Position numbers and translations under genes: made by a program
The notes under the pieces: model-generated
What the model was told of the DNA's origin: nothing
The model's database searches: none
The model's input: the letters and a program-made list of their open reading frames with translations, nothing else
Source of the DNA: an uncultured Planctomycetota bacterium
GTDB lineage: Bacteria > Planctomycetota > Phycisphaerae > SM23-33
Direction: 5' to 3'
Length of the DNA: 64,000 nucleotides
NCBI GenBank assembly: GCA_903892515.1
Contig: CAITIS010000134.1
Coordinates: 62,001-126,000, forward strand
Shown here: positions 17,526 to 64,000 of the stretch, in pieces
Layout of the letters: the number at the start of each line of letters is the position of its first letter
Numbering within the stretch: position 1 is the stretch's first letter

Positions 17526-17566
17526 GGAGATTGGGCACTATCCGCCAAAATAGGCGGTGCGGAAAT

Positions 17567-19471: not shown

Positions 19472-19473
19472 CC

Positions 19474-21026: not shown

Positions 21027-21494
21027 GGTTACGGCCGATGCGAGTTGACGATCCACCAAGCACCTTTAGAAAGCCACCCAAACCAGCACGCAATCGATGG
21101 ATGACTCAGCGCGAATGTAAAGAAATCGCCTCTTTGTCAGGTCACGGAATGATTGCATCGTAAGGTTTGTCCCTATCGTACCTTGCGCCGCCGGGGAAAA
21201 TTCTTCGTAAGCTCTGCATGGCACAGCGCAGTGGAACATTCAGGGGCCTAGGGGATAGAAGCCTTCTGCCCCCGACACCTACGATGCGTAGGCATGCAAA
21301 AACAGCCGTGGGTGTGTCGGCCGGTGATGTCCGGCCCCGCCCAATAGCTCAAAGTGTGTCGCGGCCTCGATGGTAAGCGCGCTCCGTTCGAGGCGGCAAC
21401 AATAGTCTCGCGGATGCAAGTGTGCCTGCAGGATGCGCCCAAGCCGACGCTCAGGCAACAAGACGCCCTGCTCACCCATGAAAGGAAGACACTC
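21027..21494. other. Spacer upstream of the PEP-CTERM gene
   Basis: 468 bases with no recognised gene. An open frame extends upstream from the PEP-CTERM start to 21354 but lacks a ribosome site. I looked for a riboswitch fold and saw only short local pairings such as GTCGGCCGGTGATGTCCGGCC (about 21318-21338). Confidence 0.5.
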
Positions 21495-22451
21495 ATGAAG
21501 CTCAGTATCACTCAACGAACGGCCGCCTGTGCGCGTGCGGGTACGTTGGCATGCCTCCTGGCCATTCTCGTAGCCGGGCCGTCGGCCTTTGGGATGACCA
21601 TCGTCTTGACCTACGACGCCTCGGTGCTGGCCTCGCCCAATGCCGCACTCATCCAGAGCGCGACTGCCTACGCCGCCCAGCAAATGCAACTCGCGTACGC
21701 AGATCCCATCACCATCAATATCAATGTGGTGGATCGTGCAGGGACGAACGTGCTGGCGAATAGCACCACCTCCCTGACCGGGCCGTTCACGTACGCCCAG
21801 GTGCGGACAGCCCTGATTGCCGACGCCAAGAGCGCCACCGACACCTCGGCCACAGCCAGCCTGGGCGCGACGGACCCCACCAGCGGCAGCTACTGGATGC
21901 CGCAGGCCCAGGCCAAGGCCATTGGCCTGTTCCCCGCCAACAACGCGGCCACTGATGGCACCTTCACTTTCGGGGACGGGTATGCCTACACCTTCGATCC
22001 CAATAACCGGGCGGTGGCGGGGCAGTACGACTTCATCGCTCTGGCCGAACGTGAGATTTCCGAAATCATGGGGCGTTACGCGCTCTTGGGCGTGCAGTTT
22101 GGCGCCAAGGCGGGCTATACGCCGTACGACCTGTTTCGCTACACAGCCCCAGGGCTCCGCCGCATGACCGCCGGCGGCACCAACCCCGCTTTCTCCATCG
22201 ACGGCGGAGTCACAAGGCCTAAGGTTTTCAACTCCACCGCCGGGGCCGACCTACAGGATTGGGCCGCCGGCACCAACGATGCCTTTAACGCCATTTACAG
22301 CACCGGCGTGCTAAACGACTTCTCAGCCGTTGATCAGACCGTGATGGATGCAATCGGCTATGACCCCGCTCCCGTTCCCGAGCCCGTGACCCTGGCGCTG
22401 CTCGGCGCGGGCGCGGTCGGCCTGGTCATTTGGCCACGCCGCAGCCGCTAG
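21495..22451 (+). CDS. PEP-CTERM-anchored protein, degenerate metalloprotease-like
   Basis: 318 aa. AAGGAAG before the ATG at 21495 and a signal peptide (residues 1-35, LACLLAILVAGPSAFG) fix the start. The C-terminus is a textbook PEP-CTERM signal: VPEP, a hydrophobic helix (VTLALLGAGAVGLVIW) and PRRSR, cut and anchored by an exosortase. The middle has DFIALAEREISEIMGRYALLG. Related PEP-CTERM proteins annotated as the NF038122 metalloprotease family carry HEISE(V/I)MGR here; this one has Arg where the His zinc ligand would be. Proteolytic activity is therefore doubtful. It may be a surface or matrix protein. No exosortase gene is in the window. Confidence 0.82.
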   Translation: MKLSITQRTAACARAGTLACLLAILVAGPSAFGMTIVLTYDASVLASPNAALIQSATAYAAQQMQLAYADPITININVVDRAGTNVLANSTTSLTGPFTYAQVRTALIADAKSATDTSATASLGATDPTSGSYWMPQAQAKAIGLFPANNAATDGTFTFGDGYAYTFDPNNRAVAGQYDFIALAEREISEIMGRYALLGVQFGAKAGYTPYDLFRYTAPGLRRMTAGGTNPAFSIDGGVTRPKVFNSTAGADLQDWAAGTNDAFNAIYSTGVLNDFSAVDQTVMDAIGYDPAPVPEPVTLALLGAGAVGLVIWPRRSR

Positions 22452-33610: not shown

Positions 33611-35800
33611 TCAGTTCCTATCGGGAATGGTGAAGTAGAACGCCGAGCCTTTGCCCACCTCCGAATCGACCCAGATTCTCCCGCAGTGGTACTCGACGAT
33701 CCGCTTGCAGATCGCCAGCCCGATGCCGGTGCCGGAATACTCCTGGCGCGTGTGCAGGCGGTGGAAGATCATGAAGATTCGGTCCTGCCCTTCTTCGGGG
33801 ATGCCGATGCCATTATCCTTCACCCAGAACAGCCAGCCGCGGCCTTCCCGGCTGGCCCCCACATGAATCTCGGGCCTGCGCTCGGCTGAACGGTACTTGA
33901 TGGCGTTACCCAGCAGGTTCTGCATCAACTGGACCATCTGCTGGCCCTCGGCCTGGACCGTCGGCAGCGAATCGTGCTGGATGCTGGCCTCGGATTCAAG
34001 AATCGTCACCGCCAGGTTGCCCGTGGCCAGGCGGAGCACCTCTTCCATGTCGGTTCGATTGAAGCCCTCGGTCTTGCGGCCCACGCGCGAATACGCCAGC
34101 AGGTCGCGAATCAGGTTCTGCATGCGGCTGGCCCCATCGATGGCAAAGGCCATGGACTCGCGCGTCTTGTCTTCCAACTGCCCCTCCAGCCGCCGCTCGA
34201 TCAGGCCCAGATGCCCCGAGATCGCCCGCAGCGGCTCCTGCAAGTCGTGGCTGGCCAGGTACGCGAACTGCTCCAGATCCTGATTCGACCGGGCCAACTC
34301 GGCGGCCGTCTTCTTGAGCTCTTCCTCCGTTCTGGCACGCTCCGTAATATCCAGCAGCGAGCCGATGATGGCCGGTTTGCCCTGGTAGGTCGTGTCGGAG
34401 CCGATCACCTCGACGTCAATGATGCCGCGATCTTTCCGCAGGCCGTGGAACGTGTAGTGCGTGCTCTTGACCTCGCCGGTGATGCGCCTGCGCATATTCT
34501 CGGTCACGAGCGCGCGATCCTCCGGAGCCACCAGGTCCATGACCTCGATGCCGGCGATGTCCTGTGGCCCGTAGCCAAAGATTTCCGCCAACCGCGGGTT
34601 GACGTACACGAACGAGCCGGCCTGGATCACGTACACGCCGACCAGCGATTCTTCCACCAGGTTGCGATACTTCGCTTCGCTCTCCTGCAAGGCCTCCTCG
34701 GCCCGCAGCCGCTGGGCGATCATGTCGTTAAAGGCATCGCTGACCTCATTGAGTTCGGCGATGCGCTCGCGTTGGTCGGGCGGGCAAGGCTTGCCCTCGC
34801 CCAGGCTCAGCACGCGGCCACGCAGCCGCAACAGGCTCTGGATCATTCCCCGACTCAGCACCCAGGCCCCAATGAGCGACAGCGATACGACCACTACGTT
34901 GACGGCCAGGACCGGCAATAGGCTGCGCAGGAATGGCCGGACGATCATCGGCATGGGCTCGCTGGTGCCGACCACCCAGCCGATGCTGCCCACTGGCACG
35001 GCGACGCCAAGGCGGTCCTGCCCTTCTCCGGCCAGGCGAATGACCCCCACCGCCTCCTGGCCGTGCAACGCTTGCTGAATCAGGTCGCCCGACTCGGGCT
35101 GGCGCCGCACGTCCCACGTGAGCGGCGGGCCGCAATTCCGATATGCCAGCACGCCCTTGCGATCGAAGAAGGAGATGCTGCTGCCGGGGGCGCGGGGAAC
35201 CCTCAGCGTGGCTTCGGCCAGCCTGGCTGGATTCACCGACCCGATCAGCACGCCCAGCAACTCGCCGCGGCAATACACGGGCCTGGCCACGATGAAGATC
35301 GGGTAGGGGTCGGCCCGGCCCGCCAGCAGATCGGTGACGCAGAAACCCTGGCCATGCAGCGAGGTCTGGAAGTACTCCCGGTCGCTGACGTTCATGCCGC
35401 GCAGCTTGGCGTCGCTGGTCGCCACGATTTTGCCCTGGGGGGAAACGAAGGCGAAGGCATCCAGGGCAGGATAGTCCTTGGCGGTCTCGGTCAGCAGGGC
35501 GTCAAGTTCGGCATTGGTGAAGGGGCCTTTGAGGCAGAGCGTCGCCTGCAAACTCGCCTCATCATGGGCCAAGTCGTTGATGTAGAACTCCAGCGTGGCG
35601 GCCAGGGCCCGGGCCAACTCCGCATTGGCCTGGATGTGGTCGGTGCGGTTACTACGATACCAGTATGTATAAATCCCCGCCTGGAGCAGCAGCGCCGGCA
35701 CCACGGCCACCACTAGCAGGATCGAAAGGAATTTGCGGATGCTCCGTCCACGATGGGGCTTGCTGCTGGCTGAGACAAAACGTTCCGGCTCGACGCTCAT
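33611..35800 (-). CDS. Membrane sensor histidine kinase (dCACHE-HAMP-PAS-HisKA-HATPase)
   Basis: 729 aa. TM1 lies at about residues 24-45; an extracytoplasmic double-CACHE-like sensor follows to about 305; TM2 (VLAVNVVVVSLSLIGAWVL) then HAMP. A PAS domain spans about 385-500 (ESLVGVYVIQAGSFVYVNPRLAEIFGY). The HisKA box FAYLASHDLQEPLRA has the phospho-His; the ATP lid motifs NLLGNAIKY, DNGIGIP and GTGIGLAICKRI are intact. It is divergent from the receiver-kinase operon at 36336, which may encode its partners. The ligand of the CACHE domain is not known. Confidence 0.92.
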   Translation of the reverse strand: MSVEPERFVSASSKPHRGRSIRKFLSILLVVAVVPALLLQAGIYTYWYRSNRTDHIQANAELARALAATLEFYINDLAHDEASLQATLCLKGPFTNAELDALLTETAKDYPALDAFAFVSPQGKIVATSDAKLRGMNVSDREYFQTSLHGQGFCVTDLLAGRADPYPIFIVARPVYCRGELLGVLIGSVNPARLAEATLRVPRAPGSSISFFDRKGVLAYRNCGPPLTWDVRRQPESGDLIQQALHGQEAVGVIRLAGEGQDRLGVAVPVGSIGWVVGTSEPMPMIVRPFLRSLLPVLAVNVVVVSLSLIGAWVLSRGMIQSLLRLRGRVLSLGEGKPCPPDQRERIAELNEVSDAFNDMIAQRLRAEEALQESEAKYRNLVEESLVGVYVIQAGSFVYVNPRLAEIFGYGPQDIAGIEVMDLVAPEDRALVTENMRRRITGEVKSTHYTFHGLRKDRGIIDVEVIGSDTTYQGKPAIIGSLLDITERARTEEELKKTAAELARSNQDLEQFAYLASHDLQEPLRAISGHLGLIERRLEGQLEDKTRESMAFAIDGASRMQNLIRDLLAYSRVGRKTEGFNRTDMEEVLRLATGNLAVTILESEASIQHDSLPTVQAEGQQMVQLMQNLLGNAIKYRSAERRPEIHVGASREGRGWLFWVKDNGIGIPEEGQDRIFMIFHRLHTRQEYSGTGIGLAICKRIVEYHCGRIWVDSEVGKGSAFYFTIPDRN

Positions 35801-36258
35801 CCACGGATCCCTGTCTATGGTCCTCTTAACCCACGGCGCTTTCCCCCATGCTAGCGCCAGAATCGCCCAGGCAACTCGTCCGCTGTCCAGAACCTACGTA
35901 GCCTCATCGCTCCAACCAATCCGTGAATTACCGTAGTTGCCTTCTTACTGTTCCATACGCCCAGCCTTGGCCATGGGGAGCATAGAAACAGCAGTCCCAA
36001 CCAGAGTTGCCCGCAGCAGCGTCAAGGCATGGCGTCTTTCGTGTCCCGGCCGGCGCGCCTGCGTCCAAAGACCGACGAAACCCAGCATTCCTGGCCGCAT
36101 TCCAGACACCCGAGACTCCCGCCAGGCCTTCGGCGAGAGCCTGTTAGGGAATTCCCCTAGGATCTTTTCGGCGCAAAATCCGGCACGGTGGGGATTCCGA
36201 TCACGCAACTCGGCTTTTTCGCTGGGCCGGAGCTTGGTAGAATCTGTGAGGAAAGGAC
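35801..36258. other. Spacer between divergent signalling genes
   Basis: About 458 bases. An open frame on the plus strand joins the receiver-kinase from 35937, but the part before 36336 has no domain and no ribosome site, so I treat it as non-coding. TAGAAT at about 36238 could be a -10 site for the leader ORF. Confidence 0.45.
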
Positions 36259-36339
36259 GTGCAAATCCGTGCGGCAGCGGCCAGGCCAAGCGGGCTTCGC
36301 CTTGGCCAAGTCGGGGCAGTGGCACGTGCGATGCTGTGA
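36259..36339 (+). CDS. Possible 26-aa leader peptide overlapping the receiver-kinase start
   Basis: A GTG at 36259 with GAGGAAAGGA directly upstream opens a 26-codon frame (VQIRAAAARPSG...) that stops with TGA at 36337-36339. The GTG start of the next gene is at 36336, giving a GTGA overlap. A hairpin GGCCAAG...CTTGGCC lies inside the leader. This arrangement fits translational coupling or attenuation. No conservation evidence is available to me. Confidence 0.35.
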   Translation: MQIRAAAARPSGLRLGQVGAVARAML

Positions 36340-37388
36340 CACCCGAATCGCTGCACATTCTGATCGTTGAGGACAACCTCGCCGAGGTGCGTCTGTTGCA
36401 GGAGAATCTGCAATGCGCCGAAGAGGCGAAATTTACCATCGTCCACGCCGCCAGCATGAGCGAGGCCTTGTCCGCCCTTTCGGCCAATCGCTTTCACGCC
36501 ATCCTGCTGGACTTGTCCCTGCCTGATTCGTTCGGGCTGGCGACGCTGGATGCAGCCTTGGCCGCCTGTGGACGCACGCCGGTGGTTGTGCTCACCGGCC
36601 ATGCCGATCAGGAGTTGGCCCGCGAGGTGCTGCGCCACGGAGCCCAGGACTACCTGGTCAAGAGCGATTCCGATGGCCGCTCCACCGTCCGGGCCATCCT
36701 GTACGCCGTGGCCCGAAAAAAAGTGCAGGAAGACCAGGAGCAGTTGCGCTTGCAGGCCGAGGTGCTCAAGGCCAGCGAGAATGAGCAGCGCCGGCTGGGA
36801 CGCGACCTGCACGACAGCATCCAGAGCAGCCTGGTTGGGCTGGGCATGATGATAGCAGCCCTAAAGCAGCGCGTGGCCAAGCTCGATGCCCAGCTGGCCG
36901 ATGAGTTTGACCCTATCTCCACCGTCGCCAGGGAGACGCTGGCGCACACGCGCGGACTGTCCAAGAGCCTCTGCCCCCTGGACCTGAACGAAGGCGGCCT
37001 GCACCGCGCCCTGCTGCAACTGGCCGAGACGACCAGCGGGGTCTTTCGCGTGCCCTGCCAGGTTGACCGCGCCGATGCGGTGAAACTCGCCGACGAAGCG
37101 ATGGCCACGCACGTGTACTACATCGCCCGCGAGGCCGTCACTAACGCGGTCAAACATGCTCGCTCCAAGAAAATCGCCATCAGCCTGCATGCCAAGCCCA
37201 ACGGCCTGCTGCTGACCGTGCATGATGACGGCAAGGGCTTGCCCGAGGAGGCCCGGAGCAACCGCGGACTGGGGCTGCGAACCATGGAGTATCGCGCCAA
37301 ACTGGTGGGTGGAGCGCTGTCGGTCACTTCTGGGCCCAACCAAGGTACCACGGTCCGCCTGACGATTCCGGAGTCGGTGGCTCCATGA
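36336..37388 (+). CDS. Receiver domain fused to NarL-type (HisKA_3) histidine kinase
   Basis: About 350 aa, soluble. Residues 1-125 are a receiver domain (LIVEDN acidic pair, LLDLSLPDSFG with phospho-Asp, VVLTGHAD and DYLVKS Lys). Residues about 145-215 are a HisKA_3 box, RRLGRDLHDSIQSSLVGLGMM, with the His in HDS. The HATPase part has EAVTNAVKHA, DDGKGLPEEA and GLGLRTMEYRA. The GTG at 36336 lacks its own ribosome site but overlaps a short upstream frame. It overlaps the next gene by four bases. Input probably comes by phosphotransfer from a sensor such as the divergent membrane kinase. Confidence 0.85.
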   Translation: MTPESLHILIVEDNLAEVRLLQENLQCAEEAKFTIVHAASMSEALSALSANRFHAILLDLSLPDSFGLATLDAALAACGRTPVVVLTGHADQELAREVLRHGAQDYLVKSDSDGRSTVRAILYAVARKKVQEDQEQLRLQAEVLKASENEQRRLGRDLHDSIQSSLVGLGMMIAALKQRVAKLDAQLADEFDPISTVARETLAHTRGLSKSLCPLDLNEGGLHRALLQLAETTSGVFRVPCQVDRADAVKLADEAMATHVYYIAREAVTNAVKHARSKKIAISLHAKPNGLLLTVHDDGKGLPEEARSNRGLGLRTMEYRAKLVGGALSVTSGPNQGTTVRLTIPESVAP

Positions 37389-38476
37389 GCCAGCCCAGCT
37401 CAACCATCCGCCTGCTGCTCGTCGAGGACAACCCCGGCGATGCGGTCCTGATCCAGGAATACCTGCGCTTGGCCGACGCCGCCGCGGGCACCGCGTGCGA
37501 AGTCACGCCAGCCGTCAGTGTGGGCCTGGCCGCTCAACTCCTGCGCCAAAACCGCTTTGACGTAATCCTGCTGGATCTTTCGCTGCCCGACAGCCACGGA
37601 CTGACCACCGTCGGCTACGTCAATGGGCTGGCGCCCGAGACGGCCATTATCGTGCTGACGGGGCTGGAAGATGCCACAGTGGACGTCCAGGCCGTGCGGC
37701 AAGGGGCGCAGGATTACCTCGTCAAGAACCGGCTTGGCCCGGACGTGCTGGTGCGTTCCATCCGCTACGCCCTCGAGCGCAAGGCCATCGCGCGCCGCCT
37801 CAAGCGAGCTGAGCAGGCCTTGCAGGCGGGCAACGATCAATTGGAACGCAAGATCGAAGGCCGCAGTTCCGAATTGAAGATGGTCGTTTCGGCGTTGCAG
37901 AACGAGGTCCGCCAGCGGCAGTCGGCCGAGGCTGAGCTTCGCCGGGCCAACCACGCCCTGCGTACGGTCAAGGCCTGCATGGAGGCGATCATTCACCTGG
38001 CCGACGAGCAGGATTTGCTCGAAGAGATCTGCCGCATCGTCATCGAAGTCGGCGGGTATCGCATGGCCTGGGTGGGCTACGCTCAGGACGACGAGCCCAA
38101 GTCGATCCGCGCCGTGGCCCATGTCGGCAAGGATTCGGGCTACCTGGAGCAGGCCCAGTTCTGCTGGGCCGACACCGCGCTGGGCCGTGGCCCCACCGGC
38201 GCCGCCATCCGCACCGGCAAGCCCGTCATTGGCCGGAACTTTCTCAGCGATCCTGAACTGGCCCCCTGGCGGGAAGAGGCGACAAAACGCGGCTTCCAGT
38301 CCTCGATGGCCCTGCCCTTGCTCCGCGATGGCCAGGCCTTCGGCGCCCTGACCGTCTATGCCGCCAAAGCCGACGCCTTCGACCCGACACATGTCGAGCT
38401 TCTGAGCGAACTTGCAGACGACCTGTCCTTTGGCATCATCACCTTGCGTCTTCAGGCCGGCCGGGAAAACTCCTAG
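37385..38476 (+). CDS. Receiver-coiled coil-GAF protein
   Basis: 363 aa. Residues about 1-130 form a receiver (LLLVEDNPGDAVL, LLDLSLPDSHG, DYLVKN). A coiled coil (about 135-195, ERKIEGRSSELKMVVSALQ) links to a GAF domain (about 200-355; LLEEICRIVIEVGGYRMAWVGYA ... SSMALPLLRDGQAFGALTVYA). There is no kinase, HTH or cyclase output, so it is either an adaptor or signals through the GAF. It overlaps the kinase gene by four bases (ATGA) and belongs to the same operon. Confidence 0.88.
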   Translation: MSQPSSTIRLLLVEDNPGDAVLIQEYLRLADAAAGTACEVTPAVSVGLAAQLLRQNRFDVILLDLSLPDSHGLTTVGYVNGLAPETAIIVLTGLEDATVDVQAVRQGAQDYLVKNRLGPDVLVRSIRYALERKAIARRLKRAEQALQAGNDQLERKIEGRSSELKMVVSALQNEVRQRQSAEAELRRANHALRTVKACMEAIIHLADEQDLLEEICRIVIEVGGYRMAWVGYAQDDEPKSIRAVAHVGKDSGYLEQAQFCWADTALGRGPTGAAIRTGKPVIGRNFLSDPELAPWREEATKRGFQSSMALPLLRDGQAFGALTVYAAKADAFDPTHVELLSELADDLSFGIITLRLQAGRENS

Positions 38477-38828
38477 AACTTTGTCCGCACAATAGTGCGG
38501 GCGCCACGGCGGCGGCGCTTGCAGCCGTGCCCCTTACACACCTGCAAACACCGCAGGTGTGGCCCCCGACAATCCAGGCCCGACACATGAGCCACGGAGA
38601 GTGCGCAGCTCACAGCCCCGACGCACCTTAAGTACCCTAAGTACGCCAAATAGTACGTAATTTCTGCCATGTGCCCAACGGCTCGTGCCTCCCTAGCTGC
38701 GAATCAGGCTTGGGCCCGATGTCATTGCGTGCTCGCCACATTCTATAATAAATGCATAGAAGGTCCGCAGCGGGACGTGCGACAACGGCTGTCCGTCACG
38801 GATGACGCCATGCTACGGAGAGAGTGAC
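38477..38828. other. Spacer in the signalling cluster
   Basis: 352 bases. It contains a GC-rich stretch and a short direct repeat, TTAAGTACCCTAAGTACGCC (about 38629-38648). No gene is seen. It may hold the promoter of the single receiver. Confidence 0.5.
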
Positions 38829-39233
38829 ATGATCGCGAAAGAGTGCGAGATTCTATTGGTCGAAGACAACCCCGGCGACGTGGTGTTGCTTCGCGAGGCG
38901 CTGGATCAGCTCGGGCTGAGCGTTCGCCTGTACGTTGCCCGCGACGGCTCTGAAGCCATGGACTTCCTCCGACACCCCAGCACGTCGCATTTGAACGCGG
39001 TGGTCCTGGATCTGAACCTGCCCGTCATGAATGGCCGCGAAGTCTTGGCCGAGATGTCGGCTGACCCGCAGCTCCGCCAGGTGCCGGTGGCGATTCTCAC
39101 CACCTCCACCGATGAAGCCGACGCCGCCCTGCAATTCACCAAGGAGCGCTGCGCCTTCTTCGTTAAGACCGCCGACATGCAGCAGTTTCTTCAGACCGTC
39201 AGCGACATACACGCCTTCGCCAAGAGCGCGTAG
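38829..39233 (+). CDS. Single-domain response regulator (Rcp1/CheY-like)
   Basis: About 134 aa. ILLVEDNPGDVVLLREAL, VVLDLNLPVMNGREVL with the phospho-Asp, VAILTTSTDEAD and AFFVKTADM (Lys) give a complete receiver. The DNPGD and VMNGRE variants are those of Rcp1-type stand-alone regulators, which usually take phosphate from hybrid or phytochrome kinases. GGAGAG precedes the ATG at 38829, favouring it over the ATG at 38802. Its partner could be one of the kinases just upstream. Confidence 0.93.
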   Translation: MIAKECEILLVEDNPGDVVLLREALDQLGLSVRLYVARDGSEAMDFLRHPSTSHLNAVVLDLNLPVMNGREVLAEMSADPQLRQVPVAILTTSTDEADAALQFTKERCAFFVKTADMQQFLQTVSDIHAFAKSA

Positions 39234-39580: not shown

Positions 39581-42500
39581 TTGGACTCTGCGCACAGCGT
39601 ATGTGCGCCGGATCGTGGCCACGCGGACCCTGGAACCTGGGTCCGACAGCCGCGACGGGCTGTTCAGCAGACGCCGAGCGACAAGAAGATCATGAAACAG
39701 GATCTCAGGCCTTCGAGCCCTGTGGCGGACGCCTTACCGCCACTGCGTCAGGGCCCCGGTCTTGGTGCGCCCCTCGGCCAGGCCGGCGCACCGAGCCACG
39801 CCAGGCCCGCCGAGGTAATACCCGGCGAGGCATCTGACTTGCGCCCAACTCGCCGCGGGGAACGCGCGACCGCCCCGCTCGGCGAGAGCTTCCCGCCCCA
39901 GCGCGTTCGCGTCGCCTGCCCCATCTGTGGCCGGACGTACAACATCCGCACCGTAAATCTTGGGAAAATGGCCCGCTGCCTGTGCACGGTGAAGTTCCGG
40001 CTGAGGCTAAAGCCCAAAGCCAGCTTCTCCCAGGGCAAACTCAAGCCCGCAAAACCCACGGTGGTCTCCGTTGGCCCGCTGGTCAGACCGGTGGTGCCAG
40101 TCAAGCCGGCCATCCCGCCCGCTCGGGCCGTGCCTCCAAAGCTCACCCTGGCTGCACCGGCACTGCCGGCCGCGCCTGCGCCGTGCAATCCCCCGCCCCA
40201 GCCCGTGGCGGTGCTGGACCCGTCACAAGCGGTCGATGCTGCCATCGATGAGATCATCCACGCTTCCGTGCAAGCCGCCTTGATTGAGCCGACCATCGAG
40301 CCGGCGAAAACCCAGGAGTGCTCGTCGCCGTTGGTGGCGCCGCCGCCGGCTGCCGCGGAAGTTGCCTCAGCCTCGATTTCACCTGAAGAACGGGCCGCCC
40401 TGATCGAACCGCAGGCCGCGCCGGTGCTTCATGTGGACGAGCCGGCATCAGCGCCGGAGTTGGCAACGGATAAGCCCGACCTCACGAAGCTAGAGCAGGG
40501 ACTGCTGGCCCGATTCTTCCGGCGCCATGCCAAGTCCCTGGCCCAAGCCCCGGCCAGCGATGATTCGCCAAGCCCCCAACCGGATCAGTCCGAGCCGGCG
40601 GCGCCGCTGGTGCACTCTGCCACGGCTGCGGAGTCACCGGCCGCGTCCGAGGCGCTTCCACGCGCGACCCCTGCTGTCATTGATATCAACGCCGCCACCA
40701 GCGCCCTGACGGAGCGGGAGCAGCGACTCCACGCCATCGTGCTGGCAAACCCGCCGCGTATCGAGTCACCGCAGCAGCACGCCGTCGACACTGCACCGCT
40801 CTCGCGGATCGCCTCGGTTGCAGAATCCTACGCCCAGTCCGATCCACGCCTGCGAACACCGCCGGTTTGCCACCCCGATGAGCCGGCCGCCGATGCAGTG
40901 GAACTCGTACTTCACGCCGCCACGACCGAGCCCGCCATCGTGGCCATGCCTGGCCTCGACGACACGCTGCCGATTCCACTGGCCTTTACCTCCACCGGAT
41001 TGCTCGGCCAACCCAAGCCTGCGGCCCAGCCGGAGCCCGAAGCCTTCGACGACCGGCCAATGCTGCTGCTGGCCACGCAGAGCGACGCGCCAGTGCCCGT
41101 CGCCACTACGGTCGCCGACATAATCACGACCGTTCTGCCAGGGGCCTCGACGGCCGTCATCACCGAGGCCGCCCCGCCGCCACAGGACGAGCCGCGGGAT
41201 GAACTCACCCAGTACGAGCCGGTCCTGCTGCATTGCCAGCAAAGCCCGCTGGCCACGCCGGTCGCCAGTACCTGCTCGCGAGACATGCTGCCGGTGCGAA
41301 TCGCCCAGGCCTCCACTGGCCTGGTGACGCAGGACAATCCGCCCGAGCCCGAGAAGCCCCAGGAGTTCGACGACGCGCCCGTGATGCTGCACGCCGAACG
41401 GCCTGAACTGGCTGTGGGCCTGCATGCGACAGACGTGGCGGACATGCTGCCCGTGCCGTTGGCCGCCGCCTGCGTCGCCCTGGTCAGTCAGACCACTCCG
41501 CCGCCAGTCGAACCGCCGGTCGCCCGGGAATCCATACCCCTGAGCGATGCCCACCTGCACCGGGAGCGACTGTGGCACCCGCATTACGAGGCCGTAGAAC
41601 ATCATCCCCTGCTGCTGCACGCCGAGCAGTCGGAGGCATCGCTGACGCTGGTAAACACCGACTCGCAGGAGTCCCGGCCGGTCTGGCTGGATGAGGTCTC
41701 CAACGACTTCGTCACGCATGCCAACCCGCCGCAGGAACATCAGCCTGAACCTGAAACATTCGACGCCACGCCGGTGCTGCTGCACGCCGAGTACTCCGAG
41801 TCGCCGCTGGCCATCGCCGCGCCGGCTCAGGACGCACCGCTGCCGGAACTCGACGAGGCGTGGTTCGCACTCGTGAATCAGGACAACCCGCCGCAGGAAC
41901 AGCGGCGTGAGCCCGAAACGTTTGACGCCACGCCGGTGCTGCTGCACGCTGAGCAGTCGCCCTGGTCCGTCGGCGTGGATCGCACGTCGGCCCGGGAAAT
42001 GTTGCCGCTGACCGTCGAGGCCTGCTGCACCGACGTGGTCACGCTGGGCAACCCGCCGGCAGAGCAGGCCGAAGATTTCGACAGCGCGCCCATTCTGCTC
42101 CACGCCGGCCTGTCCGACCTGGCCGAGGCCGTGGCCAGCAGTTCTCCCGCTGCCTCGACGAGGCCCATTGCGGGAATCTCAGCTGACCTCGTCACGCTAA
42201 ACAATCCGCCGACAGAGGCGACGCCCGATGCGGCCGAGTTTGACCCCACGCCCGTACTGCTGCTGGCAACGGAAATCGAGCCTGCGACCGCGGTGGAGTC
42301 ATCTTCGCCCCAGGCCGTGGCGGCATTTGCCGCCGCCTCGACGGACCTGGTCACGCTGGACAATCCGCCCGTAGAAGATCAGCCCGAAGCATTCGACGAT
42401 TCGCCCGTGATGCTGCACGCCGACCTTTCGGACTTGGCACAGGGCATGGCCACCACGTCGCCCGCTGAATACGAGCCGGTGCGGATAGCAGAAATCGCTT

Positions 42501-44677
42501 CCGACCTGATCACGCTGGACAATCCGCCGGCAGAAGATCAGCCCGAAGTATTCGACGATTCGCCCGTGATGCTGCACGCCGACCTGTCCGACCTGGCAGA
42601 GAGCGTGGCCAGCACATCGCCCGCTGAGTGCATGCCGGCGCGGATGGCCGAAATCGCCTCCGACACGATCACGCTGGACAATCCGCCGGCCGAAGATCAG
42701 CCCGAAACGTTCGACGATACGCCCGTGATGCTCCACGCCGACCTGTCCGACCTGGCAGAGAGCGTGGCTACCACATCGCCCGCTGAATACGAGCCGGTGC
42801 GGATTGACGAAATCGCTGCCGACCTGATCACGCTGGAAAACCCGCCGATAGAAGATCAGCCAGAAGCGTTCGACGATACGCCCGTGCTGCTGCACGCCGC
42901 CCTTTCCGACCTGGCACAGGGCGTGGCCACTACATCGCCCGCTGAGTGCGTGGCGGCGCGGATAGCAGAGATCGCTGCCGACCTGATCACGCTGGACAAT
43001 CCGCCGGTAGAAGATCAGCCCGAGGCGTTCGACGCTCTGCCGCAACTGATTCATGCCGAGCAGTCGCCGCTGGCGGTGGCGATCGCCATGCTGCCGACGG
43101 AGTTCTTGGCCTCACCGCTGGCTGACCATTACGTCGAACTGGTTGGCCAGGACAATCCCCCGCGGCAGGCAGAGCCGGAGCCCATCGACCTTTGGCCGGT
43201 GATGCTATTTTCGGCCGAGACGCTGCCCGAGCCGGTCATCGGCACCACCGCGCCGACAGCCAGTGCGGTTTGGCTCGTCGAGCCCGCCGCCCTGCCGGTC
43301 GCCCAGGAAACTCCGCCGCCGCCCGATCCTATCCCATCGGTGGACCTGACGCCCGTACTGCTGCTGTCGGCGGACATTGAGCCGGCGACGGCGGTCGATT
43401 TCGCCGCCCCTGAGTTGGCCGAAGCCTTCGCCGCCGCGTGCAGCGGGCTCGTCACGCAGGCCAGTCCGCCAATTGAGGACGAGCCCGAGCCGATTGACCA
43501 GCTGCCCATCTCGCTTTTTATCAGCCCGGCTGAGTTGCCGACGGCTGAGACCTCGACCACCGCCGATGAGGCGCTGCCCTTGTGGCTGTGCCAGAACGAT
43601 TGGCCGATAGGTCAGCACAACCTGCCCGTCGAGGATCCCGAGCCGGTAATCGACCAGACGCCGCTGATGCTGATGCAGGCGGACGCCGAGCCTGCCGCAA
43701 TGGCCGAGCCTGCCACGGCGGAATGTCTGGCCCAGTGGCTCGCCGAGCCGACGCCCCAGCCAACGGGCGCCGGCGATGTGCCCGTCGATACGTCATTCGA
43801 GGCCCAGCTTGGCCGGATGCTCAAGCCGCTGCCTGAGCCCATGGTCGCGACGCTGCTCAAGCTCGTTTCCGACGTGGTCGCCGCCAGCACGCCCAAAGTG
43901 ATCGCGGCCCCGCGTCACGGCCCGCAAATCGCCCCGCCAACGCCGGGTTCGCAGGCGTCCGTGTTCGATGCTGAATTCCTGCCCACGGTCGAGGACGCGC
44001 CGGCCGGACAGACTTCCCAATCGAGACTCGACGCGGCCCGCGGCGCTTCGGCCGGGCGTTCCAAGTCGCGCTGGCCCGAGCTTGCGCCACCCGCCAACGG
44101 CAAGCCCCGGCTGCACGTCACGCCGCAAAAGCGTCAACCCAAGCCGCCCACTCTGCCGCCGGTGGCTCCGCCCGCCCACGACGCCGCGCAGCGTCGCCAA
44201 CGGGCCGGTGTAATCGTCGCCGGCGTGGCCATCTGCGTGCTGCTGGGCTGCTGGGCGGCGTATCGGCTGCTGGCCCCTGCCAGCCTGGCCGGTGCGTGGG
44301 AAGATCCGCGGACGGTCAACCCGTTCTCCGAGGAAACGCCCAACTGGCGACTGCTGCTCCGGCCGGACCAGACCTTTGAACTCGCCCGTGCCGGCGAACT
44401 GGCCCTCACGCGTGGCCGGTGGTCGCAGGAGGAGCCCGCGCCGCTGGGAACCGCCATCACGCTGCAGGACGCGCCGGAAGGCTCGGGAAAGTGGCTCTTC
44501 TCGCCCCACGGAACGCTGACCCAGCTTGACGTCCCCGCCGCGGCCGTGCTCAAAAAGCACCTGCTCTGGAACGACTACCTCGCCTACAGCGTCCTGGGCC
44601 TGCTGGGCCTGGCGCTGGCCTACGCTCTCCGCTGCTACGTCCGCGAACGCCTGCTGCTGTTCGGGCGGAATTACTAG
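39581..44677 (+). CDS. Giant repeat protein: zinc-ribbon head, about 17 repeats of about 53 aa, two-TM tail
   Basis: 1698 aa. The TTG at 39581 is chosen because AGAGGAGG ends five bases upstream; a later in-frame ATG is at 39692. Cys at 113, 116, 133 and 135 (CPIC ... CLC) make a MJ0042-like zinc ribbon. From about residue 470 to 1400 the protein is a tandem array with the consensus D-NPP-EDQPE-FDD-PV(M/L)LHA-LSDLA-SVATTSPAE--P-RIAEIA-D. Seventeen copies of the PV(M/L)LHA core can be counted; the four central ones are near-identical, exactly 159 bp apart. TM helices are at about 1543-1563 and 1666-1684. Basic residues flank them so that the repeats should be cytoplasmic and the about 100-residue loop periplasmic. 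The loop (SLAGAWEDP ... LLLRPDQTFELARAGELALTRGRW) resembles a small lipocalin-like beta domain. Function unknown; no family recognised for the repeat. Confidence 0.85.
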   Translation: MDSAHSVCAPDRGHADPGTWVRQPRRAVQQTPSDKKIMKQDLRPSSPVADALPPLRQGPGLGAPLGQAGAPSHARPAEVIPGEASDLRPTRRGERATAPLGESFPPQRVRVACPICGRTYNIRTVNLGKMARCLCTVKFRLRLKPKASFSQGKLKPAKPTVVSVGPLVRPVVPVKPAIPPARAVPPKLTLAAPALPAAPAPCNPPPQPVAVLDPSQAVDAAIDEIIHASVQAALIEPTIEPAKTQECSSPLVAPPPAAAEVASASISPEERAALIEPQAAPVLHVDEPASAPELATDKPDLTKLEQGLLARFFRRHAKSLAQAPASDDSPSPQPDQSEPAAPLVHSATAAESPAASEALPRATPAVIDINAATSALTEREQRLHAIVLANPPRIESPQQHAVDTAPLSRIASVAESYAQSDPRLRTPPVCHPDEPAADAVELVLHAATTEPAIVAMPGLDDTLPIPLAFTSTGLLGQPKPAAQPEPEAFDDRPMLLLATQSDAPVPVATTVADIITTVLPGASTAVITEAAPPPQDEPRDELTQYEPVLLHCQQSPLATPVASTCSRDMLPVRIAQASTGLVTQDNPPEPEKPQEFDDAPVMLHAERPELAVGLHATDVADMLPVPLAAACVALVSQTTPPPVEPPVARESIPLSDAHLHRERLWHPHYEAVEHHPLLLHAEQSEASLTLVNTDSQESRPVWLDEVSNDFVTHANPPQEHQPEPETFDATPVLLHAEYSESPLAIAAPAQDAPLPELDEAWFALVNQDNPPQEQRREPETFDATPVLLHAEQSPWSVGVDRTSAREMLPLTVEACCTDVVTLGNPPAEQAEDFDSAPILLHAGLSDLAEAVASSSPAASTRPIAGISADLVTLNNPPTEATPDAAEFDPTPVLLLATEIEPATAVESSSPQAVAAFAAASTDLVTLDNPPVEDQPEAFDDSPVMLHADLSDLAQGMATTSPAEYEPVRIAEIASDLITLDNPPAEDQPEVFDDSPVMLHADLSDLAESVASTSPAECMPARMAEIASDTITLDNPPAEDQPETFDDTPVMLHADLSDLAESVATTSPAEYEPVRIDEIAADLITLENPPIEDQPEAFDDTPVLLHAALSDLAQGVATTSPAECVAARIAEIAADLITLDNPPVEDQPEAFDALPQLIHAEQSPLAVAIAMLPTEFLASPLADHYVELVGQDNPPRQAEPEPIDLWPVMLFSAETLPEPVIGTTAPTASAVWLVEPAALPVAQETPPPPDPIPSVDLTPVLLLSADIEPATAVDFAAPELAEAFAAACSGLVTQASPPIEDEPEPIDQLPISLFISPAELPTAETSTTADEALPLWLCQNDWPIGQHNLPVEDPEPVIDQTPLMLMQADAEPAAMAEPATAECLAQWLAEPTPQPTGAGDVPVDTSFEAQLGRMLKPLPEPMVATLLKLVSDVVAASTPKVIAAPRHGPQIAPPTPGSQASVFDAEFLPTVEDAPAGQTSQSRLDAARGASAGRSKSRWPELAPPANGKPRLHVTPQKRQPKPPTLPPVAPPAHDAAQRRQRAGVIVAGVAICVLLGCWAAYRLLAPASLAGAWEDPRTVNPFSEETPNWRLLLRPDQTFELARAGELALTRGRWSQEEPAPLGTAITLQDAPEGSGKWLFSPHGTLTQLDVPAAAVLKKHLLWNDYLAYSVLGLLGLALAYALRCYVRERLLLFGRNY
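42401..43036 (+). repeat. Core tandem block of 159-bp units inside the giant gene
   Basis: The string CGCCCGTGATGCTGCACGCC or near-copies starts at about 42401, 42560, 42719 and 42878, all exactly 159 bases apart. Outside this block units become more divergent in both directions, consistent with expansion from the centre. Confidence 0.9.
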
Positions 44678-45269
44678 CGCGCGGTCAGAGGCCGGAGGCC
44701 TGAGACCGCAGATCGTCCTGGCCGAGGTAGGGTGCCATAGCCTGACTCGATGGGACCCTCTTTGGCTCCGTCGAGGCTGGCTATGCCCGACGCCGCGACG
44801 GATACCTGCCATGAGCCTGGGCATAGTTATAGCCGCAACGGCGCGGCTCAAACTATGACACCCAGCCCGGATGATGCCACGGGCTGTCGGGGCACATCAA
44901 CGACGCGGCACCGAGTTGCAACCCGAGAAAATTCCATATCGTTACTGGCGACCGAAGCGATACTTGCACGCGATGCTTATGGAGAAGTGGAAATGCTTGA
45001 ACCGGCCTGGCTACAAGTGATTCGAGGCTGAAGCGAAACGTGACGCACAAGTAAACAGGTATCGGGTATCACTGCCTGGGGCTGGGGAAGGTTGAACGCG
45101 TAGCAAGCGATTCAACGCCCCGTTCCGATGAGGCTATGCCCTTCGGAAAATGCCCGCCTCTAAAGGTTCCGCTTCAGCCTCAATGTTTTGCGCGCTACAG
45201 GCCTGCCTGGTTCGGCGACCCCGCGTTTTTCTCTTCGCCTACAGCCGTTGCGTTTGCTACAAATGCCGT
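44678..45269. repeat. Spacer with two family B palindromes
   Basis: 44730-44796 (GGGTGCCATAGCC ... GGCTATGCCC) and 44819-44868 (GGGCATAGTTATAGCCGC ... GGCTCAAACTATGACACCC). The rest is unremarkable. A frame reads from 45150 into the restriction-modification gene but has no ribosome site. Confidence 0.7.
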
Positions 45270-48071
45270 ATGCCCATTTCCTGGAATGAAATTCGCCACA
45301 ATGCCATTGGCTTCGCCCACGAATGGGCCGGGGCCAGGAGCGAAACCGCCGAAAAACAGACATTCTGGAACGAGTTCTTTCAGGTCTTCGGCCTCCGCCG
45401 CCGCACGGTCGCTACGTTTGAAGAGCCCGTCAAGAGCATCGCCGGCAGGTATGGCTTCATCGACCTCTTCTGGCCCGGCACGCTGCTGGTCGAGCACAAG
45501 AGCCGCGGCAAGGATCTCGGCAAGGCTGAGAGCCAAGCCTTCGCCTACATCCGCGACCTGCTCGCCGCCGGCCGGCAAGACGAAGTGCCGCGCTACGTCA
45601 TTGTTACCGACTTCGCCCGCGTGGCACTGCACGACCTCGAACCCGACGATCAGTGCGCCCTCCCGTTGCCCAGGCAGGTCAAGAGCATTGAATTCCCCCT
45701 GGCCGAACTGCACGAGTACGTTCACGATTTCGCCTTCATCCCCGGCTACAAGCAACACAGATTCGTTGATCAGGATCCCATCAACCTTAAGGCCGTCGCG
45801 ATATTGGGCGATCTTCACGATGCCCTTGACGCGGGCGGCTACTCCGGCCACGAACTCGAACGCTTCCTCGTCCGCGTCCTGTTTTGCCTGTTCGCCGAAG
45901 ACACCGGCATTTTCGAGCGCGAGGCCTTCCGCCTCTACCTTGAAGATCGCACCAAGCCCGACGGCTCGGACCTCGGGCCGCACCTGGCCAGGCTCTTTGA
46001 GGTGCTCAACACCCCTGATGAGCGGCGACAGGCGAATCTGGACGAGGCGTTGGCGTCCTTCCGTTATGTCAATGGGGCCCTCTTCGCCGAAACGCTGCAC
46101 TTCGCCGACTTCAACCGCGATATGCGAGACGCGCTGTTGGCCTGCACCCGATTCCGCTGGGCGGAAATCTCCCCCGCCATCTTCGGCTCGCTCTTCCAGG
46201 CCGTCATGGAAAAGCGCGAACGCCGCCAGATCGGTGGACACTACACCAGCGAACGCGACATCCTCAAAGTCGTCCGCTCCCTCTTCCTGGACGACCTGCG
46301 CGAGCACTTCCAGCGCATCCAGAACAGCAAGGCCGAACTGCAACGTTTCCACGAAAAACTCGGCTCGCTCCGATTCTTCGACCCGGCCTGCGGCTGCGGC
46401 AACTTCCTGGTCGTTACCTATCGCGAGTTGCGGCTGCTGGAGATCGAAGTGCTCAAGGCCCTTCACGGCCGACACCGCCAGCGGGCGTTGGACATCCAGC
46501 ATTACTCCAAGGTGGACGTTGACGCCTTCTACGGCATCGAGATCAGCGAGTGGCCCGCCCGCATCGCCGAAGTGGCCATGTGGCTGATGGACCACCAGAT
46601 GAACCTGCGGCTGTCGGAGGCCTTCGGTGAGAGCTTCGTCCGCCTGCCCTTGACGAAGAGCGCCACCATCGTGTGCGGAAACGCCCTGCGTCTGGAATGG
46701 AAAACCATCCTCCCGCCCAGTAAATGTTCCTACATCCTGGGAAATCCGCCCTTTGTGGGCAAGCGTTTCCAGACCGCCGAGCAGAAGCAGGACATGAAGC
46801 TGGCCTGCCGCAACGTGGGAGGAGCCAGCGTCCTTGACTATGTGACTTGCTGGTACTTCAAGGCGGCCGAGTACATCCAAGGCACAACAACCTCAGTGGG
46901 CTTCGTTTCAACCAATTCGATCACGCAAGGCGAACAGGTTGGAACACTGTGGCGAGCACTGTACGGGCAATACCGTGTTAAGATCAACTTTGCCCATCGT
47001 ACCTTCCGCTGGATGAGTGAAGCTCGCGGAATGGCTCACGTTCATGTAGTCATCATCGGGTTTGCGGCATTTGACAGCCCAACCAAGCGGATTACTGACT
47101 ATGAACCCGATGGAGAGGACGCCACTGTCTTTTCGGCTGCCCGAATCAACCCATACCTGGTTGACGGTCCCGAGGTGTTCGTGCTATCAAGGTCGCATCC
47201 TCTGTCCGCGCCTGAAGAAATACACTTTGGCAGCATGCCCAATGACGGGGGAAACCTCGTACTGACCGAGGAGGAAAAGACTCAACTGGCGCAGAGCGAT
47301 TCCAGAGCCGCCCAGTTCATCCGACCTTACCTTGGATCCGAAGAGTTCATTAACGGGATACAACGATGGTGCCTTTGGCTGGAGGGCGTATCTCCGGCGG
47401 TCCTTCGTTCAATGCCACAGGTCATGCGGCGCGTCCAAGCGGTAAGATCCCATCGCGCGTCCAGTACCCGTGAGGCAACGGCCAGGTTGGCGTCTACTGC
47501 CGCGGTCTTTGGAGAAATCCGCCAGCCCACGGTGCGCTATCTGGCCATCCCCAAGACTTCGTCCGAGAACAGACGCTACATCCCAATGGCGTTCCTCACG
47601 CCGGAAACTGTGTGCAACACCGAGTTGTTCAGCCTGCCAAACGCCACGCTCTACCATTTCGGGGTCCTGACCTCGGCCATGCACATGGCGTGGGTGCGGC
47701 AGGTCTGCGGCAGGTTGAAATCCGATTACCGCTACTCTTCCACGCTGGTGTACAACAATTTCCCTTGGCCGGAGTCGCCCAGTGAGAAGTCGCGGTCGGC
47801 GGTGGCGAAGGCCGCCCAGGCCGTGCTGGAGGCGCGGCAGCAATACTTGGATGACGGGGCGGCGCTGGCCGATGTGTACGATCCGCTGGCTATGCCACCC
47901 AAGCTGGTCAAGACGCACGCGGCGCTGGACCGTACGGTCGATTTATGTTACCGGCCTCAGTCGTTCGCCAGCGAACGTGGCCGGGTGGAGTTCCTCTTTG
48001 CGCTGTACGAAAAGCTCACCGCTCCGTTGATGCCGGTCACCCCCAAACGCCGCGCCCACTCGCAGCAGTAA
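45270..48071 (+). CDS. MmeI-type (type IIL) fused restriction-modification enzyme
   Basis: 933 aa, close to MmeI (919). Endonuclease motif in the N-terminus: Asp65-X9-Glu75-His-Lys77, the same D-X9-EXK as MmeI. N6-adenine methyltransferase: motif I FFDPACGCGNFL (about residue 370) and motif IV NPPF (about 492). The C-terminal about 330 residues (from about 600) form the target-recognition region that serves both activities. One polypeptide therefore cuts and methylates, and no separate specificity subunit is seen or needed. The ATG at 45270 lacks a good ribosome site, and an in-frame extension upstream has none either. It lies alone between repeat-filled spacers, next to a MazG-like gene, as expected for a mobile defence gene. 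Confidence 0.9.
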   Translation: MPISWNEIRHNAIGFAHEWAGARSETAEKQTFWNEFFQVFGLRRRTVATFEEPVKSIAGRYGFIDLFWPGTLLVEHKSRGKDLGKAESQAFAYIRDLLAAGRQDEVPRYVIVTDFARVALHDLEPDDQCALPLPRQVKSIEFPLAELHEYVHDFAFIPGYKQHRFVDQDPINLKAVAILGDLHDALDAGGYSGHELERFLVRVLFCLFAEDTGIFEREAFRLYLEDRTKPDGSDLGPHLARLFEVLNTPDERRQANLDEALASFRYVNGALFAETLHFADFNRDMRDALLACTRFRWAEISPAIFGSLFQAVMEKRERRQIGGHYTSERDILKVVRSLFLDDLREHFQRIQNSKAELQRFHEKLGSLRFFDPACGCGNFLVVTYRELRLLEIEVLKALHGRHRQRALDIQHYSKVDVDAFYGIEISEWPARIAEVAMWLMDHQMNLRLSEAFGESFVRLPLTKSATIVCGNALRLEWKTILPPSKCSYILGNPPFVGKRFQTAEQKQDMKLACRNVGGASVLDYVTCWYFKAAEYIQGTTTSVGFVSTNSITQGEQVGTLWRALYGQYRVKINFAHRTFRWMSEARGMAHVHVVIIGFAAFDSPTKRITDYEPDGEDATVFSAARINPYLVDGPEVFVLSRSHPLSAPEEIHFGSMPNDGGNLVLTEEEKTQLAQSDSRAAQFIRPYLGSEEFINGIQRWCLWLEGVSPAVLRSMPQVMRRVQAVRSHRASSTREATARLASTAAVFGEIRQPTVRYLAIPKTSSENRRYIPMAFLTPETVCNTELFSLPNATLYHFGVLTSAMHMAWVRQVCGRLKSDYRYSSTLVYNNFPWPESPSEKSRSAVAKAAQAVLEARQQYLDDGAALADVYDPLAMPPKLVKTHAALDRTVDLCYRPQSFASERGRVEFLFALYEKLTAPLMPVTPKRRAHSQQ

Positions 48072-54771: not shown

Positions 54772-55869
54772 GTGAGAATCATCGCGGTACTCAATCAGAA
54801 GGGCGGCGTGGGCAAGACCACCACGGTGGCGAACCTCGGCTCGGCGTTGGCACGGCGCGGCCAGAAGGTGTGCCTGGTGGACCTCGATCCGCAGTCGAAC
54901 CTGACGATGCACTTTGGCGTCGATCCGGCCGAGGTCAAGACCAGCACCTACGATCTCCTCACCGGAGGAGCCACCTTTGCCCAGGCGGCCGTTGCCGTCG
55001 AAGACAACCTCACGCTCCTGCCGGCGGTGATCGACCTGGCCGCGGCTGAGGTCGAACTGGCCGCCGAAGTCGGGCGCGAGCAGATCCTGCGCGGGCACCT
55101 CGAGAAGGAAAACCCGCCCTACGACCTCATGCTGCTGGACTGCCCGCCTAGCCTGGGGCTGCTGACGCTCAACGCCCTGGCCGCCGCCGGCGAGGTGCTG
55201 ATCCCGCTCCAGCCGCACTTCCTGGCCCTGCAAGGCCTGGGCAGGCTCTTAGAGACGGTAGAGCTGGTCAACAAGCGAATCAACCCCACGCTAAAAGTCA
55301 ACGGCGTGGTCTTCTGCATGTTCGAGAGCGGCACGAAACTGGCCGGCGAAGTGGTCGAGGACGTGCGCAGCTTCTTCGCCCAGGCACACGGTGGCCCCAC
55401 GCCATGGTCGGCCGCCCGCGTCTTCCAGACCCGCATCCGCCGCAATATCAAGCTGGCGGAATGCCCCAGCTACGGATCGAGCATCCTCAAGTACGAGCCC
55501 TCCAGCAACGGCGCGAAGGATTACCTCGATTTGGCTGAAGAGTTCCTCAACCCGCCGGCCGTCGTGCCCGCTGGGCAGGTAAAGACTGCCCCATCAGCGT
55601 CGCAACATGGTCACGCGAACAGCGTGACCATGCCACCCGTTCAAGAGTCGGCGAAGGTGGGCCTCGCAGAACAACGCTCGACCCAGCCTGCTGTGTCCGC
55701 GGCTGAACATGTTCACGCCGAGAGCGTGGCTGCCTCATCGGATGCGCCGCCAGCGGAACCCGGCCAAGCCGACGACGACGTGGCCACGCTGCCGGACGCG
55801 CCTGCGTCTGAACCTGGTCCGGCCGACGACAGCGCTGCGGCGCCGCCCGACGCGCCAGCCACCGAATAA
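54772..55869 (+). CDS. ParA/Soj-type ATPase with repeat-bearing tail
   Basis: 365 aa from a GTG at 54772. QKGGVGKTTT (deviant Walker A, residues about 9-18), VDLDPQSNL, and LDCPPSLGLLTL are complete. Residues about 260-365 are a disordered Ala/Pro/Asp tail. It contains HGHANSVTMPP, which is the in-frame translation of a family A palindrome (55603-55638), and a second such block AEHVHAESV. No ParB gene follows: the next gene is queE, which starts two bases after the stop (TAACC ATG). It is a second orphan ParA in the window, next to no partition site that I can see. Confidence 0.92.
   Translation: MRIIAVLNQKGGVGKTTTVANLGSALARRGQKVCLVDLDPQSNLTMHFGVDPAEVKTSTYDLLTGGATFAQAAVAVEDNLTLLPAVIDLAAAEVELAAEVGREQILRGHLEKENPPYDLMLLDCPPSLGLLTLNALAAAGEVLIPLQPHFLALQGLGRLLETVELVNKRINPTLKVNGVVFCMFESGTKLAGEVVEDVRSFFAQAHGGPTPWSAARVFQTRIRRNIKLAECPSYGSSILKYEPSSNGAKDYLDLAEEFLNPPAVVPAGQVKTAPSASQHGHANSVTMPPVQESAKVGLAEQRSTQPAVSAAEHVHAESVAASSDAPPAEPGQADDDVATLPDAPASEPGPADDSAAAPPDAPATE
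55603..55638 (+). repeat. Family A palindrome inside the ParA coding region
   Basis: CAACATGGTCACGCGAACAG then CGTGACCATGCCACCC. It has the same hairpin as the intergenic copies at 2970-3002 and 1105-1142, yet it keeps the reading frame and adds a peptide of about 12 residues. Confidence 0.9.
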
Positions 55870-63429: not shown

Positions 63430-64000
63430 CCGCGCAGACGGCAGGGTCCGCAGGTTCTTTCGCGCCGTTGCGAAAGGTTCTGCGGACGGGTCCAGCGGCA
63501 GCTCGCGCAGGCGTTCGGCGCGTGCCCCTCAAAGCGCCGCCAACCGCGCCGCCCCTCATGGGTGGTCGCTGCACTGGGTGGCATGGTCACGCTGTTGCGT
63601 GACCATGTCGGGACCTGCCACGCCAAAGCACTGCGGAACCATACGGCACCAACCGGCACCAACCGGAACGAAACGGAACGAAACGGAACCAAACGGAACC
63701 ATTGGGAACGAGTCGGAACCGTTTGGACCGATTTGGAACGCAGGAAGACTCCCGCATCACTCTGGCCGCCAGCAGCTTGCGGATTCGTCTCTGCTCTTGG
63801 CTCGCACCTGCTGCCCACAAGCGCACCCCATGCGCACGTCCGCGCAGCGTCCTGATTCCTGTCACTCGCCCGCGTGGCACCGCTCTTCACTTTTCAAACT
63901 TTCTCCCCCGGCCCGCTCGGCCGGAGGCCCTTCCATAGAAGGGCCGACGCACCCTTTTCTGCGCACAAGCCGACGCGGCCTAACCGACTCTTCCGGCCAG
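63430..64000. repeat. Terminal spacer: family A hairpin and a period-10 array
   Basis: 63576-63611 is a family A hairpin, GGGTGGCATGGTCACGC to GCGTGACCATGTCGGG. 63643-63742 is an array with an exact 10-base period of units such as AAACGGAACC. The rest to 64000 includes a palindrome-rich stretch (CCGGCCCGCTCGGCCGG) and no gene that I can support. Confidence 0.75.

Follow-up and report, generated by a model that had tools for sequence, protein, structure and literature searches.

What does the giant reading frame at 39581..44677 of the window (the whole 64,000-nucleotide stretch analysed here) encode, and to what end might a bacterium carry an acidic array built from a single 53-residue unit? 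The frame lies on the forward strand, as do all features of its product, and is uninterrupted in open-reading-frame analysis. Its start codon is uncertain, being either TTG 39581 (1698 residues), which is preceded by a Shine-Dalgarno-like AGAGGAGG (second copy of the text: AGAGGAGGCGTC), or ATG 39692 (1661 residues); residues are numbered throughout from the TTG. GC3 exceeds GC2 in all 100-codon windows from 39581 to the stop, and the pattern is absent past the stop, a codon-position composition that supports coding along the entire frame. Because this signal persists along the frame and ends at the stop, and because substitutions among the central units favour synonymous sites, we rejected a non-coding or frame artefact. 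Scans for promoters and terminators gave results no better than chance. We regard the gene as genuine, bacterial and very long, and its product as an orphan that is bigger and more regular than most.

Directly upstream of the gene are two sensor kinases and two response-regulator proteins (33611-39233), and directly downstream is a complete MmeI-type restriction-modification enzyme (45150-48071) with N, helical, methyltransferase, target-recognition and C domains. When the upstream regulator and a downstream aldo/keto reductase were searched for within the family, no corresponding neighbourhood could be established.

Anatomy of the repeat array

The array occupies residues 471-1391 (40991..43753) and, by unit profile and alignment, comprises 17 units of ~53 residues with the consensus DLVTxxNPPxEDxPExFDxxPVLLHAxxSxLAxxVAxTxPxExxPxxxAxxx. 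Searched against the genome, the unit profile gives 17 significant matches, all of them within this gene, and autocorrelation over residues 421-1395 is strongest at lags of 53 (0.275) and 106 (0.239), against a maximum of 0.129 in 200 shuffles; copy number and unit length thus agree with those proposed in a sequence-only reading of this DNA. Units measure 51-55 residues, except for unit 4 (41474..41701), which reaches 76 through a 23-residue insertion, and the unit alignment also reveals a decayed unit 0 (residues 426-470, 40856..40990), recognisable in its second half alone. Four near-identical central units (42341..42976) start at 42341, 42500, 42659 and 42818, exactly 159 bp apart as had been noticed by eye, and the tandem-repeat finder reports the same period over 42344-43034 (4.3 copies, 86% matches). 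In the unit alignment they are followed by a fifth unit, ending at 43132, whose 3' half diverges.

This region is acidic: residues 461-1400 have a net charge of about -141 and a pI of about 4.05, residues 471-1391 contain just two Lys and 19 Arg, and the composition of the array is 13.6% Pro and 17.6% Asp+Glu. The earlier figure of about 1500 residues of acidic repeat was nevertheless an overstatement, as the array spans ~920 and the first 200 residues of the protein are basic (about +21).

Structure prediction of two to three tandem units had been suggested; AlphaFold2, run on three, returned a model (pTM 0.12, mean pLDDT 57) without a confident fold. The alignment used had 13 rows, all of them segments of the window and hence paralogous only. 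For an orphan, so shallow an alignment may by itself account for low AlphaFold2 confidence. The array is probably disordered, because it is acidic and because AlphaFold2 found no confident fold, although over most of its length the charge-hydropathy score does not place it clearly among disordered sequences.

History of the array and constraint on its units

DNA identity is 83-89% among units 9-12, the four spaced by 159 bp, and 69-75% between unit 7 and units 9-12, but only about 41-66% in most other unit pairs, so that the array has experienced one old and one recent amplification. This supports the earlier suggestion that the 159-bp central block had expanded recently. Copying may also have involved stretches longer than a single unit, since units 8 and 15 are unusually similar despite their distance (sharing 47% of residues and 60% of bases) and a period of 103 appears besides 52 at the end of the array.

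Such a tandem array offers natural copies of a motif that differ in age, in which it is easy to ask which residues are retained. Of the 13 diverged units, all keep the Pro of PVLLHA, while the Asp, the PP and the third Leu are each kept in 12, and these core residues persist while their codons vary. The protein sequence of the central units is under some constraint, as their pN/pS is 0.48 across the unit and falls to 0.24 within the motif core. In the diverged units, on the other hand, selection on the motif is not proven, because the core was chosen after its conservation had been seen and eight of 60 random column sets gave pN/pS as low as the core's.

The membrane tail and exported domain

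Beyond the array, a juxtamembrane linker that is basic near the membrane (residues 1392-1535, 43754..44185) leads into a transmembrane (TM) helix (residues about 1540-1567, 44198..44281, preceded by RRQR), an exported domain of about 96 residues that is probably beta (44282..44569), and a second TM helix (residues about 1667-1686, 44579..44638, followed by RCYVRER). The two hydrophobic segments are evident from hydropathy, as the sequence-only reading had described, and their flanking basic residues fit an N-in/C-in topology in which, by the positive-inside rule, both ends of the protein would be cytoplasmic. AlphaFold2 modelled the tail alone with low overall confidence and in the order helix-strand-helix: the two helices, corresponding to the TM segments, are confident, and the part between them, with some strands, is poorly modelled (pLDDT <50).

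BLASTP aligned the tail with a stand-alone protein of 206 aa from a same-family genome (L004:1387-2004; E 3e-6), a likely relative by an alignment that is significant over 34 residues only. This protein has a TM segment, an exported domain with LLLxxDxTFELxxAxELxL and a second TM segment in the same order as the window tail, but differs from the window protein in carrying neither ribbon nor repeats. The exported domain had also been called lipocalin-like. In Pfam it matches nothing up to an E of 10, and comparison with the PDB returned designed beta-trefoils only, over 27-29 positions with no stretch passing alone. A likeness drawn from the residue pattern stays a guess, because AlphaFold2 models precisely this part poorly.

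The N-terminal zinc ribbon

Near the other end of the protein, a zinc ribbon at residues about 108-145 (39902..40015; CPICGRTYNIRTVNLGKMARCLC) carries four Cys in two knuckles, C113-x2-C116-x16-C133-x-C135, and is followed by a Pro/Ala-rich linker (residues 146-425, 40016..40855). While the ribbon reached no curated cut-off in Pfam, its best relative, CPSCGREYHVRMDQLGKTAKCGC, is the N-terminus of a SHOCT-domain protein from a same-family genome (L015; 50% identity over 32 residues, E 3.7e-6), with C-x2-C...C-x-C at matching places. The CPIC...CLC ribbon recognised at the outset is thus corroborated by its four Cys and by relatives within the family.

Similar ribbons occur on many unrelated proteins of these genomes. 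In four of them, from the same family and class (L015, L017, L021 and L022), the Cys-rich ribbon is at or near the N-terminus, as in the window protein, and in two (L017 and L021) a linker and TM segments likewise come after it. None of the four, however, has the repeat or the tail of the window protein, and the domains joined to the ribbon differ among them (SHOCT, protein kinase-like and others). The protein L017 (about 1267-2922) has three short units behind the ribbon (EVSLGSLADKMGAP, VELDLSLSSLAEEIAAP and VELDSSLGELHQAIE) as well as a TM helix and a C-terminal part that begins with GRW, and resembles the window protein in layout without detectable sequence likeness. Its linker (APVELDLSLSSLAEEIA) was considered as a homologue of the repeat, which it resembles by eye, but was missed by the repeat profile and dropped.

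Searches for relatives of the repeat protein

Profile searches of Pfam, NCBIfam, PHROGs and the PDB gave no credible match to the repeat, in keeping with the initial view that it belongs to no described family, and the lack of a significant match in Pfam, NCBIfam or the PDB likewise accords with the view that it follows no TPR, LRR, WD40 or adhesin pattern. The search of other genomes of the phylum that had been recommended covered 392 genomes, of which the protein's own was the only one to match the repeat profile, leaving 391 without a match; the repeat is absent even at family distance, the closest compared, and has no paralogs within its own genome. Comparison of the whole protein with 60 relatives matched the ribbon alone, and a tail profile run against 298 genomes of the class found one genome (G002), besides weak matches near E 0.01-0.03. 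Scans of genome contigs with the tail and the whole protein, extended to viral contigs and plasmids, produced no match at the sensitivity used. Literature searches for giant, zinc-ribbon or repeat proteins of planctomycetes turned up nothing similar in titles and abstracts. Judged by these comparisons, the repeat protein is an orphan of this genome among the libraries and genomes searched.

Comparison with HubP and FimV

HubP/FimV proteins have a domain in the periplasm, a TM segment and, on the cytoplasmic side, a long acidic region that is unstructured; the imperfect repeats of HubP vary in number and length even among close species, its orthologs are similar in composition and strongly divergent in sequence, and the partners characterised for it, ParA1 included, attach chiefly to its acidic modules in the cytosol (PMC12918733, PMC8789113). 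Like the polar organisers HubP/FimV of Vibrio, Shewanella and Pseudomonas, the window protein has a membrane anchor, a small exported part and a very long acidic arm. This arm, too, is built from repeats, which in HubP differ between species in number, length and sequence. Charge, repeats and hydropathy establish a large acidic, TM-anchored region in the window protein, and the positive-inside rule would place it on the cytoplasmic side.

In contrast, the layout of the window protein is opposite to that of HubP/FimV, the arm being N-terminal and the two TM segments C-terminal, and its N-terminal zinc ribbon sets it further apart. No LysM match was obtained for the whole protein in Pfam and NCBIfam or for the exported domain alone in Pfam, and neither Pfam nor NCBIfam matched a TPR/FimV domain, the C-terminal end being TM helix 2. 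A genome-wide search with FimV_core also returned no matches, but control genomes likewise gave none, so this search is uninformative. Because LysM-like and TPR modules were undetected and the layout is reversed, we do not file the window protein as a member of HubP/FimV; it is HubP-like in design, not in sequence, and in this broad sense closest to the disordered acidic scaffolds with which bacteria collect proteins at one spot of the membrane.

A scaffold, a spacer or a sensor?

By analogy with HubP, we tentatively favour a role as a multivalent scaffold or tether, with the repeats forming a membrane-anchored, cytoplasm-facing, disordered acidic arm. The two TM helices would hold this very long, mostly disordered arm at the inner membrane, with the ribbon on its free N-terminal end and the small exported domain fixing or sensing a position in the envelope; each unit would offer the motif D-NPP-x-ED-x-PE-x-FD-x-x-PV[LM]LHA, and many copies of a putative cytoplasmic partner might thereby be gathered at one membrane site. 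The acidity, the low AlphaFold2 confidence, the persistence of the motif in diverged units, the pN/pS of the central units and the likeness to HubP/FimV all count for this reading, while the post hoc choice of core, the eight of 60 random sets, the charge-hydropathy score, the shallow alignment and the repeat's lack of an ortholog count against it. If the array is a docking scaffold, it would represent an independent invention of an acidic, disordered, repeat-built membrane organiser.

Nearly as likely, though doubtful in its own right, is an entropic spacer grown by unit duplication: the array would bind nothing specific, holding the ribbon off the membrane or crowding the membrane surface, and would have lengthened as its 159-bp units underwent unequal crossing-over or slippage. 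This would suit an orphan repeat that is absent from all other genomes searched and whose unit length ranges from 51 to 76 residues. Moreover, young tandem repeats with periods of 105 and 27 bp also occur in the Ala/Pro-rich tail of a ParA-like ATPase encoded in the window (17531-19471), so that tails of this kind seem to lengthen readily in this genome. However, a spacer would not predict that motif residues outlive the remainder of the unit in old copies, nor a central-unit pN/pS of 0.48 rather than 1. Were the array a mere spacer, the protein would be another orphan low-complexity protein.

An unlikely alternative to both the scaffold and the spacer is a transmembrane sensor or regulator, in which the exported domain senses something in the envelope, the ribbon acts on DNA, RNA or protein in the cytoplasm, and the array is only a linker. 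While the ribbon and exported domain do lie at opposite ends, two-component genes are directly upstream, and the TM-domain-TM module stands alone in another genome, the short ribbon is the protein's only candidate for DNA binding, searches in the family found no conserved gene neighbourhood, and ribbons of this sort occur on many unrelated proteins. We give similarly little credence to a hub protein of the pole or membrane that evolved in this lineage separately from HubP/FimV, presenting a new docking motif, PV[LM]LHA, ~17 times and using the ribbon as its client-binding end. Least probable is that the repeats adopt an unseen architecture (solenoid or beta structure) missed by prediction. The regularity of the unit (51-55 residues), its conserved hydrophobic positions (LVT, PVLLHA, LA..VA) and a predictor given paralogous rows only speak for it, and the low pTM and pLDDT, the Pro and Asp+Glu content, and a PDB without a match to the repeat speak against it.

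Other features of the window

The ParA/MinD/BcsQ-like ATPase mentioned above (PF13614, E 4e-31) is directly followed by a 441-aa TM protein, the pair spanning 17531-20799; the long tail of the ATPase encodes AEGGCPTSS in its tandem repeats, and the C-terminus of the TM protein looks GspB-type by eye, without a Pfam match. A C-terminal PEP-CTERM sorting signal at 21354-22451 is near threshold (PF07589, 20.0 bits vs a cut-off of 20.7). Towards the end of the window (63634-63739), a 10 bp tandem repeat, CGGAACCAAA, is present in ~7 copies together with longer related periods. Finally, a second ParA-type ATPase (54772-55869; PF13614, E 3e-55) is encoded ~10 kb downstream of the repeat gene.
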